NCBI RefSeq assembly: GCF_000526675.1
Contig: NZ_JAGN01000009.1
Location: forward strand, 1 to 43,489
Source: Atopobacter phocae ATCC BAA-285
GTDB taxonomy: Bacteria > Bacillota > Bacilli > Lactobacillales > Aerococcaceae
Direction of reading: 5' to 3'
Length of the DNA stretch: 43,489 bases
Shown: piece after piece, positions 12,902 through 18,389 of the stretch
Numbering within the stretch: the stretch's first letter is position 1
How the letters are laid out: each line of letters starts with the position of its first letter
Notes under the pieces: generated by a model
The model's database searches: none
What the model was told of the DNA's origin: nothing
What the model saw: only the letters and a program-made list of their open reading frames with translations
Translations under genes and position numbers: made by a program

Positions 12902-12980
12902 GGTATGAAAGCGATTGTTAATAAAACAATGGCACATTTATTAAAAAATACTTTATTTGTTAAAATTTACATAAAAAATA

Positions 12981-13009
12981 TTGACAGCATTTGCCTTAAA
13001 ATATATATT
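12981..13009 (+). promoter_or_regulatory. Promoter of the first YSIRK gene
   Basis: TTGACA (12981-12986), 17-base spacer, TATATT (13004-13009). Box sequences and spacing are identical to those of the two other YSIRK genes downstream. The 5' leader runs to GAAGGAG before the ATG at 13064. Confidence 0.85.
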
Positions 13010-13063
13010 GAACGTGTAAAGAATAATTTTTTTACTTGTATTTGATTTGAAGGAGAAATTAAT

Positions 13064-14014
13064 ATGAAAAAACAAACAGGCACACAACCAAAGTACAGCT
13101 TAAAAAAAATAGGAGTGCATGTTGTATCTTGTCTTATTGGAATGACATTATTTAGTCCAATAAGCCACATGGTGCACGCAGATATGTCAGAAATATCTGC
13201 AGAGTCAAGTCATACAAATAGTTATTATTATATGAATATGTTATCAGAAGAAAAAGTATTAACTGATAAAAAAACAGGTGTACAAGTTGTCTTACAAGCA
13301 ACTGAAAAAGTTAATATCGAACAAGTCCAAGTGACTAAAGGTACTACAAATGGCGTGTATGATATTCAATTAATTGATAAAAATGGACATAGCGTTAATC
13401 CAGCGATAGCAGTAAAAGTTGTACTTCCTGTTGAAGCAGGTAAAAAAGCAGTTAAAGTTGTCAACTTATTAGAAGGTCAAGATAAGTCGCTATCATTTGG
13501 TGAAGACGATCAGACAGTAGATTTCTTTACGAAACAATTAGGTAAGTTCTATGTAGAGTATGCAGATGGATCAAATCAATTAAATAAATCGGATTTAGAA
13601 AACGAATCAACACCAGATGCTCCGAAAGATGAAGAAAAAAATGTACCAATGCCACATGCACCTAAAACAGAAGAGCATACATCAGGGATGTTGTCAGAAG
13701 AAAAAGAATTAGAAGATAAAACAACAGGAGTGAAAGTAGTCTTACAAGCTACTGAACGTGCAGATATTGAAGCAATCAAAGTTACGCGTGATGAATCAAC
13801 AGGTGTGTACGATATTCAATTGGTTAATAAAGAAGGACATGAAGTTCACCCAGCCATTGCAGTTAAAGTAATTCTTCCAGTAGAAAAAGAGAAAAAAGTC
13901 GATCAAATAATAAAAGAAAATGACCATCGCTCATTATCATTCGGTGAAGAAGATCATACTGTGGATTTCTTTACGAAACAATTAGGCAAGTTCCGCATCG
14001 AATATAAAAAATAA
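13064..14014 (+). CDS. Secreted YSIRK-signal protein with duplicated domain and no cell-wall anchor
   Basis: A 316-residue protein with a YSIRK-type signal peptide (YSLKKIGVHVVSCLIG, residues 11-26) and likely cleavage after Ala39 (MVHA|D). Residues 59-167 and 209-314 are two copies of one roughly 107-residue domain. Each opens with MLSEEK, contains TGV.VVLQAT and GVYDIQL, then PAIAVKV.LPVE, and closes with TVDFFTKQLGKF. They are joined by a charged Pro/Lys/Glu linker. The domain pattern recalls beta-sandwich repeats in streptococcal surface proteins; function unknown. No LPXTG, membrane anchor or extra frame carrying one follows, so it is predicted to be released or held non-covalently. It has its own promoter and terminator. 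Confidence 0.8.
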   Translation: MKKQTGTQPKYSLKKIGVHVVSCLIGMTLFSPISHMVHADMSEISAESSHTNSYYYMNMLSEEKVLTDKKTGVQVVLQATEKVNIEQVQVTKGTTNGVYDIQLIDKNGHSVNPAIAVKVVLPVEAGKKAVKVVNLLEGQDKSLSFGEDDQTVDFFTKQLGKFYVEYADGSNQLNKSDLENESTPDAPKDEEKNVPMPHAPKTEEHTSGMLSEEKELEDKTTGVKVVLQATERADIEAIKVTRDESTGVYDIQLVNKEGHEVHPAIAVKVILPVEKEKKVDQIIKENDHRSLSFGEEDHTVDFFTKQLGKFRIEYKK

Positions 14015-14139: not shown

Positions 14140-14187
14140 ACAAGACATACAGTTCCTATTCAAGGGTACGTTGTATGTCTTGTTTTA
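14140..14187 (+). terminator. Terminator after the first YSIRK gene
   Basis: ACAAGACATACA (14140-14151) pairs perfectly with TGTATGTCTTGT (14172-14183), followed by TTT. It lies 125 bases after the stop. The rest of 14015-14430 is A-rich non-coding DNA and the next promoter. Confidence 0.75.
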
Positions 14188-14285
14188 TATTAAAAAAACA
14201 TTTAAAACATAATAAAAAACAAAAAAAGGATAAAAATAAGCGAAAAAGAATAAAAAAATTGGTGAAAATGAGAAAAAAATGAATT

Positions 14286-14367
14286 TATGACAACTATATG
14301 ACAAAACGATTTAAATTACATTTTATACTGAAAATTTATTGACACTAAGCTATTGGAAGCATATATT
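14286..14367 (+). promoter_or_regulatory. Promoter of the second YSIRK gene with upstream direct repeats
   Basis: TTGACA (14339-14344), 17-base spacer, TATATT (14362-14367). Upstream, TATGACAA occurs twice (14286-14293 and 14297-14304), an exact 8-base direct repeat with an 11-base period ending 34 bases before the -35 box. That is the spacing of a response-regulator dimer on one face of the helix. The whole stretch from about 14278 aligns with the region before the third YSIRK promoter. Confidence 0.75.
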
Positions 14368-14430
14368 TAACTAGAAAATATGGGTTAGCTACTACTCCCA
14401 TATATAAATAATTTTACGGAGGAAAAACTC

Positions 14431-16488
14431 ATGAATAACATTCAAAAACAGCCTAAATATACAATCAAGAAATTAAGTATCGGCGTTGCTTCATGCTTAA
14501 TCGGTTTCGCATTCTTCGAACCAATTAGTGGAACAGTGCATGCGGAGGAAGAAACAGTTCTAACAGATAAAGCACATTCTTTAGAATCAGTTACAGAAAC
14601 TAAAATGTTTGATTTGGATGGAAACAATATAGAGTACAAACAAGACAAACAATTAGATGAATCAGAAAGATATGCAGACGAACAAAATAATATCGAAATA
14701 AATAAAATTGATTTAAATGCAGATGAAAAATCACCCGCAGTAAATGTCTTAGGCAAATATATTAACGAAAATTCCATTCAAAACTTTCAAAAGAATTATG
14801 AAAACAGTACGTCTAATAATCCGATGTACGATTCTGAATTAAAAGCCTTGCTTTCAGAAGCAACTAGCGCAATAAAAGACAAAGATCCTATGAACATGAT
14901 TTGGAAAATAAAAAGTATCGTAGCAAAATATCGGTTAGATGTTATTAGCGAAGATTTAGATAATTATTTGAATAAAATTGATAATAAAGAATTTATATTA
15001 GAAAAATCGAAACAAGAATTAAACAAAAACTTATTAGAAGCAAAAGATAAAGTAAATGTTTTGAAGAGTGCTTCTGATGCTCTAAATACTATTAAAAATG
15101 ATAACTACAAAGATTTTATACAAAAGCATAAAACGGTAGTAAGTAAAAATGTAGAAGTTTTAAACGAAAATTTAAGATTTAGAGAAAACATTGAACATAA
15201 TTTAGCGGATATAAAAGCAAAGGAAATTAATGATATCTCACAAAAAGCAGTTGATATTTTGGATAAAGTGGGCACTCATACTAATAAAAGAGAGATTAAT
15301 GATTTAGTTTTTAAAATCGCAAAAAATTTGGAAGCTAAAGCTACTAATGAAAATTTAAAAGAACTTTTAAAATTAACGAATGAATTAGAAAAATTAATTG
15401 AATCCTCAAAAGAAATTTCTGAGCCTAAAAAAGAAGATTTGAATAAAGAAAAAGAAGAAGCAGCAAGAGTAATTAATAATGCATTGCAAGAAAAATTAAA
15501 AGCAATTAGTGAAGATAAAAGATATACAAAAGAAGAAAGAACAAATATCAATAAAATTTTAAATGATTATGCAACATCAAATATTGAAAAGATACAAAAA
15601 GAATCGGATGAAAAAGAGATTATTAAACTAAAAAATGAAGTAGTAAATGATGTTACACATTATGAAGGTGCACCATTCTCAAAACCGGATGCAAAAGAAT
15701 CAATTAAAAATCAACAAAATATCCGTATAGGAGAAATAAAAAAACAAACAAATGTAACCGCAGATCAAATTGATCAAGCGATTGAATTAGTTAATAAAGC
15801 TGCAGAAAAAGCGAATAAAGAAATTGAAGATGCTGATACGGATGAGAATGTTGAACATGCAAAGGCAGAGGGATTATATGCTATTCAAAAAATTAACGCA
15901 GCTAATCAACCAAAGGTGAAACCAGATGTGAAACAACCTGAAGGTAAAACACCTGACAAGAAACAACCAGCGCCTAAGAAAGAGCAACAAAAAGAAGTAA
16001 TCCCTGGATTAAAATTACAACCAGCGCCTAAAAAAGAACAACCAAAAGAAGTAATCCCTGGATTAAAATTACAACCAGCACCTAAAAAAGAACAACAAAA
16101 AGAAGTCATTCCAGGATTAAAATTACAACCAGCGCCTAAGAAAGAACAACAAAAAGAAGTCATTCCAGGATTGAAATTACAACCAGCACCAAAAACTGAA
16201 GATAAAAAACAAGATGGAATGAAACCAGAAGCACCAAAAGCTGATATGGAAAAAGAAAAACATGAAACACCTAAAGTGGATGGTAAACAAGAAAACAAAC
16301 CAAATATGCCTTTAGACAAACATACTAAAGAATCAAAAGAAAACAAAGAAGCTAAACCAGAAATGAAGAAAGAAAATAAAGCTTCATTACCACAAACAGG
16401 TGAAGTAGTATCATTTGGCACTGCAGCGATGGCTGTTCTTACAGGTTTAGGATTAGCTATTCCAGGATTCAAACGTAAAGACCAATAA
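14431..16488 (+). CDS. LPXTG-anchored surface protein with YSIRK signal, DUF1542-like and 18-residue repeats
   Basis: A 685-residue wall-anchored adhesin-type protein. Residues 1-38 are a YSIRK signal peptide (YTIKKLSIGVASCLIG, cleavage after VHA). Residues 40-340 are charged and helical, of unknown fold. About 342-410 and 420-490 follow the DUF1542 helical repeat pattern (for example ending AKAEGLYAIQKI). From residue 513 come four units of an 18-residue repeat, PAPKKEQQKEVIPGLKLQ. A Lys/Glu/Pro-rich wall-spanning tail ends in LPQTG at residue 653, a hydrophobic segment and FKRKDQ, so sortase A should link it to peptidoglycan. GGAGG precedes the ATG. Its repeats and promoter are shared with the next gene, indicating tandem duplication. 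Ligand unknown. Confidence 0.9.
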   Translation: MNNIQKQPKYTIKKLSIGVASCLIGFAFFEPISGTVHAEEETVLTDKAHSLESVTETKMFDLDGNNIEYKQDKQLDESERYADEQNNIEINKIDLNADEKSPAVNVLGKYINENSIQNFQKNYENSTSNNPMYDSELKALLSEATSAIKDKDPMNMIWKIKSIVAKYRLDVISEDLDNYLNKIDNKEFILEKSKQELNKNLLEAKDKVNVLKSASDALNTIKNDNYKDFIQKHKTVVSKNVEVLNENLRFRENIEHNLADIKAKEINDISQKAVDILDKVGTHTNKREINDLVFKIAKNLEAKATNENLKELLKLTNELEKLIESSKEISEPKKEDLNKEKEEAARVINNALQEKLKAISEDKRYTKEERTNINKILNDYATSNIEKIQKESDEKEIIKLKNEVVNDVTHYEGAPFSKPDAKESIKNQQNIRIGEIKKQTNVTADQIDQAIELVNKAAEKANKEIEDADTDENVEHAKAEGLYAIQKINAANQPKVKPDVKQPEGKTPDKKQPAPKKEQQKEVIPGLKLQPAPKKEQPKEVIPGLKLQPAPKKEQQKEVIPGLKLQPAPKKEQQKEVIPGLKLQPAPKTEDKKQDGMKPEAPKADMEKEKHETPKVDGKQENKPNMPLDKHTKESKENKEAKPEMKKENKASLPQTGEVVSFGTAAMAVLTGLGLAIPGFKRKDQ
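15967..16182 (+). repeat. Four tandem 54-bp units encoding an 18-residue Pro/Lys repeat
   Basis: Units start at 15967, 16021, 16075 and 16129, each PAPKKEQ(Q/P)KEVIPGLKLQ. A degenerate fifth start (PAPKTED) follows. Units differ by only a few synonymous bases, so copy number may change by slippage or recombination. The same unit, with KQPE in place of QQKE, occurs in the next gene. Confidence 0.95.
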
Positions 16489-16519
16489 TTGATTCAAATA
16501 AAACAAGTGCTTAATATCG

Positions 16520-16556
16520 ATAAGGAACTCAATTGATGAGTTCCTTATTTTTTTTA
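16520..16556 (+). terminator. Terminator after the second YSIRK gene
   Basis: ATAAGGAACTCA (16520-16531) pairs perfectly with TGAGTTCCTTAT (16537-16548) and is followed by a long T run. Confidence 0.92.
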
Positions 16557-16797
16557 TAGATAAAAATAAGTAGTATGAGTAGTCATTAAATGTTTACGAA
16601 TTTTATTTTAATAAAATTAGTAAAATAAAATTACAAAAAACAAAAGAAATAGACATTAAATTTTTATAGAAACTTGAAGAAAAATTTTTCATAATTAAAT
16701 TTATTGTTTGTTTTGATTAATAAAAAGCTTGAAATATACTCGTTAAATAAGAAGAATATGATAAAAAAAGAAAAGATAAATGAAAGATAAATGAGTT

Positions 16798-16880
16798 TGT
16801 AACAACTTTATTACATTTTATCTTTATTTATGTTTTTATACTAAAAAAATATTGACATCTATTATTCTAAAGCATATATT
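16798..16880 (+). promoter_or_regulatory. Promoter of the third YSIRK gene with upstream repeats
   Basis: TTGACA (16852-16857), 17-base spacer, TATATT (16875-16880). Upstream, TGTAACAA and TATTACAT-like halves (16798 and 16809) have the same 11-base period as the pair before the second YSIRK gene. The 68 bases from 16790 to the -35 align with 67 bases at that gene. The remainder of 16489-16950 is A/T-rich with nothing else supportable. Confidence 0.75.
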
Positions 16881-16950: not shown

Positions 16951-18389
16951 ATGAACATGAATACACATAAACAACCGAAATACACGATAAAAAAATTAAG
17001 TGTTGGCGTAGCTTCGTGCTTAATTGGTTTTACGCTATTTGGACCAATTAGTGGAACTGTGCATGCAGATGATGTTGAAATGACAACTACTTTAAATCCT
17101 GAAGTGAATACACTAGAAAAAGTAGATCGACTAAAAGACACTGCAGAACAGGATAACAAAAAAGCAGCCAATGAAGACCAAGAGAAAAATAATACGATAG
17201 TAGAACAAAATGAAATGGAATCGGAAGATATTGAGCAAAAAAATTCAACAGTGAATGAGGATTATGAAGAGCCTGAAGAAGAGGAAATTCTTTCTGAAGA
17301 GGATCAACAGAAATTAAATAACATAAAACAGAAAGCTAAAGAAGCTAATTTAGATGTAAATGGTAATGAAAACCCAAAGAAAATTAACGAAGAAATTACA
17401 AAGTTATTAGACGATGTTGAAAAAGAATTTAAAAGACTTTATCCTCATATAAGAATTAATTTTGGTATATATACAGAAAACATGAAAGATTTGAAGGGAA
17501 AGGTAACGGATTCTTCTAGTATACTTGGAAAAGGAAATGCTCTAAAATTCGCAAAAAGTAAAGTGTTAGAATTGAAACTTAGAATTGTACAAAAAGAACT
17601 TAAGGGATATTTAGGGAAACATAGTGCCCAACAGTAGCAAATTATGATATTGCTTTATTAAAAGTAATTCAAGAAGATACTAAAAAACTAAGAGCACTTC
17701 TCCCTTCTGAACAAGAAATGGGAGAAATGCCTCAAAATCAAAATCCAAAAGTCATTCCAGGATTAAAATTACAACCAGCGCCGAAGAAAGAAAAACAGCC
17801 AGAAGTTATTCCAGGATTAAAATTACAACCAGCGCCGAAGAAAGAAAAACAACCAGAAGTCATTCCAGGATTAAAAATACAACCAGCACCGAAAAAAGAA
17901 AAACAGCCAGAAGTTATTCCAGGAATGAAATTACAACCAGCGCCGAAAAAAGAAAAACAGCCAGAAGTTATTCCAGGAATGAAATTACAACCAGCGCCGA
18001 AAAAAGAAAAACAACCAGAAGTCATTCCAGGAATGAAATTACAACTAGCGCCGAAGAAAGAAAAACAGCCAGAAGTGATCCCAGGATTAAAATTACAACC
18101 AGCACCAAAATCAGAAACAAAAGAAGAAACACCAAAAATGCCTGAACTTGCACCGAAAAAATCGGATGACAGTAAACCTAATAATCGCAATATGAACAAA
18201 AAAGAAAACAAACCAAAAGCTCCAGAAGCTAAAGGTCATATGCAAGCAGAACAGCCAAAAGCAAGCACCACTCAAAAACAAGCGACGCTTCCTCAAACAG
18301 GTGAAGAAGTTTCGTTAACAACCGCATTGGTCGCAATGCTTGCTGGATTAGGATTGGTCATTCCAGGATTCAAACGCGAAGAAAAATAA
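16951..18389 (+). pseudogene. Frameshifted YSIRK/LPXTG surface protein gene
   Basis: From ATG 16951 (GGAGGA 7 bases upstream) a frame encodes a YSIRK signal peptide and a charged helical region, stopping at 17637 after 228 residues. The other half continues one frame away, open from 17625. It encodes VANYDIALLKVIQEDTKKL, six 18-residue repeats and a sorting signal (LPQTGEEVSLTTALVAMLAG, then FKREEK). Adding one base at the CCC run at 17627-17629 joins them into a 479-residue protein with the same plan as its left neighbour. So either a single C was lost or the sequence has an error there. As written, the head would be secreted without an anchor and the tail would not be exported. The joined helical part resembles residues 110-180 of the neighbour. 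Confidence 0.85.
17775..18098 (+). repeat. Six tandem 54-bp units encoding an 18-residue Pro/Lys repeat
   Basis: Units begin every 54 bases from 17775 to 18045, encoding PAPKKEKQPEVIPG(L/M)K(L/I)Q; the sixth begins with Leu instead of Pro. A half unit (KVIPGLKLQ) precedes them. They are nearly identical at the DNA level and closely related to the four units in the upstream gene. Confidence 0.95.

Follow-up and report, generated by a model that had tools for sequence, protein, structure and literature searches.

A candidate WalR-responsive promoter block shared by two tandem YSIRK surface-protein genes in Atopobacter phocae

The DNA consensus reported for WalR (VicR/YycF) is TGTWAH-N5-TGTWAH, and a study of S. 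mutans refines it to TGTWAHA-N4-TGTWAHA (PMC4168254). For S. aureus it is described that WalR sites situated 5' of the -35 box go together with activation, and that their orientation has no significant effect (PMC10746227). YSIRK proteins are described as trafficking to the septum (PMC13104630; PMC3595261). The S. mutans gene wapE encodes a protein with a YSIRK signal and has a VicR consensus in its promoter, which was bound by purified VicR in gel shifts, and its authors propose that division is coordinated with surface biogenesis (PMC3595261). The locus described here resembles wapE in joining a YSIRK-signal gene to a VicR consensus in the promoter, and since wapE is a direct precedent, YSIRK genes under WalR would not be the first of their kind. 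The two systems differ in that wapE is one gene while two tandem paralogs with a common block are found here, in that VicR binding was shown for wapE while it is predicted here, and in that wapE is reported to be additionally repressed by CovR (PMC3595261). S. mutans wapA also offers a likeness, as a reverse-strand TGTTAT-N5-TGTTAT before this gene for a wall-associated protein is described as a VicR-protected site of high affinity; wapA, however, encodes a different protein (PMC4168254).

The window, i.e. the whole stretch of 43,489 nucleotides that was analysed, is the entire contig C9 of a 1.67 Mb genome in 82 contigs. It contains three plus-strand surface-protein genes flanked by an AI-2E-type transporter gene and gatD-murT. 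GatD was compared with 56 loci, which come mostly from Leuconostoc, Fructobacillus and Weissella, and the highest identity was 50%. The features of the locus are:

12981..13009, plus strand: sigma-A promoter TTGACA-N17-TATATT (exact string) before the 13064 gene, the third one and without WalR-like repeat
13064..14014, plus strand: diverged YSIRK-like (YSLKK) secreted protein; no Pfam match and no LPXTG seen
14272..14338, plus strand: control block copy 1, before the 14431 gene (alignment to copy 2)
14286..14303, minus strand: candidate WalR-like box TGTCATA-N4-TGTCATA (relaxed pattern TGTNAY-N5-TGTNAY; matrix score 9.1, rank 8 of 86,944)
14339..14367, plus strand: sigma-A promoter TTGACA-N17-TATATT (exact string) before the 14431 gene
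14431..16488, plus strand: YSIRK surface protein of 685 aa with DUF1542, 18-residue repeats and LPQTG (Pfam, translation)
16784..16851, plus strand: control block copy 2 (alignment to copy 1)
16798..16815, minus strand: candidate WalR box TGTAATA-N4-TGTTACA (no deviation from the published consensus; matrix score 11.4, rank 2 of 86,944)
16852..16880, plus strand: sigma-A promoter TTGACA-N17-TATATT (exact string) before the 16951 gene
16951..17637, plus strand: first ORF of a YSIRK gene, its N-terminal part (PF04650, 38.5 bits)
17718..18389, plus strand: downstream ORF in another frame, with identical 18-residue repeats and LPXTG anchor (PF00746, 26.2 bits)

The YSIRK-type signal peptide (PF04650) scores above its cut-off in the proteins of both the 14431 gene (31.6 bits, together with PF07564) and the 16951 gene. 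LPQTG is visible in the translation of the former, which has no Pfam anchor match at 0.001, and the PF00746 match to an LPXTG anchor is confined to the separate frame 17718-18389. The frame of the third gene is broken between 17637 and 17718, and its first frame shows stops past 17637; either the gene itself is broken or there is a sequence error. A 54-base tandem repeat encodes the 18-residue unit of the 14431 gene, and it is common to both anchored genes (15963-16195 and 17745-18117), the unit being identical. A scan gave terminator-like hairpins after the second and the third gene. By eye, AAGACATACA and TGTATGTCTT form an inverted repeat at 14142-14181, 3' of the 13064 gene, with a T-rich run after it; this possible terminator is absent from the scan list. 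An Rfam scan of the whole window matched nothing.

The original prediction described identical boxes (TTGACA, 17 bp, TATATT) at 14339 and 16852, and these are indeed exact at both places as well as at 12981. Genome-wide there are six occurrences of this string and none of the reversed pattern, and five of the six precede YSIRK-type genes: the three in the window, one in contig C44, and one in contig C4 before a diverged YSIRK-like gene. The sixth (C18:16691) precedes another apparently secreted protein, and the YSIRK genes of C18 and C60 have TTGACT-N17-TATATT instead. TTTTATAC followed by an A-rich run is found just 5' of the -35 at 14324-14338, at 16836-16851 and in the C4 promoter (L112), and could be an UP element.

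It was further claimed that the DNA upstream of the 14339 and 16852 promoters can be aligned, and this holds: copy 1 and copy 2 of the block are identical at 45/67 positions with one gap, and none of 5000 shuffles did as well. The similarity is limited to the block; neither the 67 bases farther upstream (343/2000 shuffles as good) nor the 5'UTRs of the two genes (152/2000 shuffles as good) show significant similarity. The region at 12981 aligns weakly, with 1282/5000 shuffles as good against copy 1 and 154/5000 against copy 2. A third copy of the block lies outside the window, before the YSIRK gene of C44. It matches copy 1 at 46/67 positions without gaps (0/5000 shuffles as good) and copy 2 at 41/63 with nine gap columns (19/5000 shuffles as good, for the 67-68-base block), while copy 2 and C44 compared over a longer 90-base stretch gave a p of 0.13, which is not significant (300 shuffles). 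The pairing of the two window blocks is confirmed, but the tighter relative of the block at 14278 is the C44 copy. A sequence model built from the three copies found no further strong copy in the genome among the 150 of 762 initial candidates that were scored, and the next-best matches had E values of 0.05 (12928-13012) and 0.06 (C39:11015, inside an ORF on the other strand). Just 5' of the second WalR box, an exact tandem repeat AAAGATAAATG with an 11-base unit was seen by eye at 16772-16793.

A block of this kind may also be a leftover of duplication, in which the promoter was copied along with the signal-peptide segment. The similarity would then be due to common descent and not to a functional regulator site, and transcription would be set by the strong core promoter alone. 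The signal-peptide segments of the 14431 and 16951 genes are also alike (90/111 bases), the C44 copy retains the block but not the half-sites, which are degenerate there, and the YSIRK core promoters agree with the consensus at 11 of 12 positions, all of which fits such an origin. However, the block has stayed alike between two flanks that have diverged, and the half-sites agree with the consensus of a known regulator in orientation as well as in helical phase; this explanation is regarded as unlikely.

When it comes to the repeats themselves, the exact 8-base repeat that had been noticed at an 11-base step is present, TATGACAA being found at 14286-14293 and again at 14297-14304. Genome-wide, TATGACAANNNTATGACAA without mismatch is confined to this one site, and two mismatches add two more places (control 2). 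The second site reads TGTAACAA (16798-16805) and TATTACAT (16809-16816) on the plus strand. It had been taken for a degenerate form of the same layout; the 11-base step is indeed the same, but on the minus strand 16798-16815 is the better WalR match of the two. In the hexamer test with TGTWAH-N5-TGTWAH the second site is exact (16799-16815, minus strand), while the first (14287-14303) reads TGTCAT-N5-TGTCAT with C in place of W in each half. With this one mismatch per half the first site falls outside the strict consensus, and it is therefore called WalR-like. Both halves of both sites have A at the seventh base, in agreement with the S. mutans refinement. The original suggestion of a response regulator is supported, since direct repeats spaced by one helical turn suit a regulator of the OmpR type, and reading the minus strand narrows the match to WalR/VicR. 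The gene behind the 12981 promoter has the same boxes and, as predicted, no such repeats, the best upstream matrix score being 5.3.

The matrix was trained on 20 pcsB boxes of relatives and was used to score 86,944 places in the window. With scores of 11.4 and 9.1, the two sites are far below the pcsB boxes, which range from 18.7 to 24.3, and close to a site before the organism's own M23 gene (11.9); scores as high are also reached at unrelated places of the window (12.1 and 11.0). Among 5000 shuffles of 14200-14338, 1.6% contained an exact 8-mer at step 11 and 29% one at any step from 8 to 30; for 14278-14338, the shares were 0.4% and 8.5% (also 5000 shuffles). The exact repeat by itself is thus only mildly unusual. 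For TGTNAH-N5-TGTNAH, tested on four stretches, the frequency among shuffles was 0.7-1.8% (5000 per stretch). Throughout the genome, exact TGTWAH-N5-TGTWAH has 20 matches against 43 for the reversed pattern, and relaxed TGTNAY-N5-TGTNAY has 19 against 19, so neither is enriched; as 11 of the 20 exact matches moreover lie inside ORFs, the WalR motif by itself is weak evidence. The lack of enrichment fits repeats that arose by chance in A+T-rich DNA, and so does the frequency of exact 8-mers at step 8 to 30 in the two longer upstream regions, where 29% and 38% of the shuffles contain one. Chance is nevertheless considered very improbable, since two homologous promoters retain the pattern at nearly the same distance from the -35 (35 and 36 bases), and since the seven-base form TGTNAYA-N4-TGTNAYA was seen in at most 0.02% of shuffles, albeit in a form picked after both sites had been seen.

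The genome encodes WalR (NF040534, 408.7 bits against a cut-off of 340). The best match of the adjoining kinase is WalK, with 557.8 bits against a cut-off of 725 for a protein that is cut at 460 aa by the end of the locus. For three of the nine intergenic exact matches to the WalR consensus, the gene that follows encodes a protein with NlpC/P60 + CC_PcsB, M23 + CC_PcsB or Amidase_3, and for a fourth a YSIRK protein; among the other five are matches before a pstS-like gene and before genes that have no obvious connection with the wall. One exact match lies within a gene end, 5' of the gene of a LysM-3D protein. The gap from box to -10 is 48 bases in the pcsB-type gene, 47 in the Amidase_3 gene and 52 in the M23 gene (42 with an alternative hexamer), and no clear -10 was found after the box of the LysM-3D and pstS-like genes. 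A YkyA-type lipoprotein gene (C6:18950) was rejected as support; it has TGTCAT halves, but these are 238 bases upstream, in the gene's own orientation, and have a matrix score of 2.5.

Seven OmpR-type DNA-binding regulators are found in the genome, and one of the PhoB/PhoP type lies beside phosphate-system genes, so another regulator of this kind might use the repeats. The PhoP box consists of TTWACA repeats, and the plus-strand sites of the window resemble it. Upstream of the pstS-like gene (G000:C27:19289, L188), TGTAAA-N5-TGTAAA fits both the WalR consensus and this PhoP box; the site has a matrix score of 10.7, and its fit to the WalR pattern also speaks for a PhoP-type regulator. Against the TTWACA hexamer, however, there is one mismatch per half at 16798-16815 and two in the first site, while the WalR match is exact at 16798-16815 and the seventh base fits in each half of both sites. 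Judged by the PhoP consensus, PhoP is held to be a less likely binder than WalR, and use of the repeats by any other OmpR-type regulator is improbable.

For comparison with WalR, the best match to the organism's own PcsB-type protein was taken from 22 of 23 related genomes searched. G024 (L235, a C-terminal match only) and the second or weaker matches L237-L243 were left out; L224, L226 and L236 are perhaps not true pcsB counterparts and were kept in the denominator of 22, and the start of L221 was placed too far inside the gene. An upstream TGTNAH-N5-TGTNAH, oriented opposite to the gene, is found in 20/22 of these pcsB-type genes, and in 19 of the 20 the distance from the box to the -10 hexamer of TGnTAnnnT is exactly 48 bases. 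The WalR-controlled pcsB promoters of the relatives are like the YSIRK promoters in the box, in its orientation to the gene and in the helical face relative to the -10. The YSIRK boxes sit 35 and 36 bases 5' of the -35, with gaps to the -10 of 58 and 59 bases, and are thus on the same face of the helix as the pcsB boxes, one turn farther out. The type of promoter differs, since those of pcsB combine an extended -10 with the lack of a near-consensus -35; their best -35/-10 pairs match 6-9 of 12 positions, against 11 in the YSIRK promoters. No description of the fixed pcsB geometry or of the one-turn shift was met in the literature searched, though these searches were aimed elsewhere. The pcsB upstreams L214-L223, L225 and L227-L234 also have a conserved TACGAATTGA-like stretch after the box, the start of which is in phase with a third, degenerate half-site at an 11-base step.

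The expectation that the repeats would recur at other YSIRK promoters was not borne out. TGTNAH at an 11-base step was found in 0/38 upstream regions from YSIRK genes of relatives (8 genomes), a set in which the starts were placed by script, some of them probably wrongly, and which leaves out the streptococcal genomes G015 and G020 with nine YSIRK genes each. The best matrix score among these upstreams, 11.7 (G003_L056), is no better than that of chance places in the window. In the genome itself only two of the eight upstreams tested have the box; the upstream of a ninth gene, in C4, which is outside the set of 46 upstreams, has nothing above 5.8. The repeats are not intact in the closest paralogous block, that of C44, which scores 2.1 at the homologous place. 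In the C18 YSIRK promoter, inspection by eye showed two half-sites with a step of 9, which were left uncounted. The 75 other genomes of the family contain no close counterparts of these YSIRK genes, the best E value being 4.0e-9, while the organism's own six members score 4.7e-25 or better against a profile that was built from them; the conservation test in relatives is weak for this reason. Among named relatives of the YSIRK genes there were 42 pattern matches, of which tblastn confirmed none. Closely similar DNA, noted by eye, lies just 5' of YSIRK genes in three genomes (L115, in C60, and L052 and L055 of relatives) and is perhaps an end of a mobile element.

The preferred reading is that WalR activates the two genes for septum-targeted YSIRK proteins together with the division hydrolases. 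A WalR dimer would bind the two minus-strand half-sites one helical turn apart, which lie 35-36 bases 5' of the -35 and some 80 bases from where transcription probably starts. The bound dimer would switch on the near-consensus sigma-A promoter. The two wall-anchored YSIRK proteins would in this way share division-linked control with PcsB-type peptidoglycan hydrolases. That WalR binds here, that it activates and does not repress, where transcription starts and that there is a physiological coupling are all predictions; activation of both genes is assumed by analogy with the S. aureus sites 5' of the -35. Joint control with septal hydrolases makes sense because YSIRK proteins go to the septum. 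The reading builds on the sequence match, the conserved module, the presence of WalR with a WalK-type kinase and the pcsB box of relatives at a fixed distance, and it is considered moderately probable. Confidence was held at this level because of the 38 negative upstreams of relatives, the two positives among eight own ones, the low C4 score, the degenerate C44 half-sites, and a strong core promoter that might suffice. The more specific proposal of a lineage-specific duplicated module, where a WalR box one turn beyond the pcsB position is combined with a consensus -35 and couples the supply of YSIRK proteins to the division hydrolases that open the septal wall at their place of export, is put forward more tentatively, at somewhat below even confidence.

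A two-gene WalR module is a sensible and largely ordinary extension of the known regulon. The 48-base gap of the pcsB promoters as compared to 58 and 59 bases here would give a direct handle on the roles of helical phase and of a consensus -35 in activation by WalR. If the reading is true, WalR in this lineage governs the supply of septum-targeted surface proteins besides that of wall hydrolases, and the two genes would add to the case of wapE.
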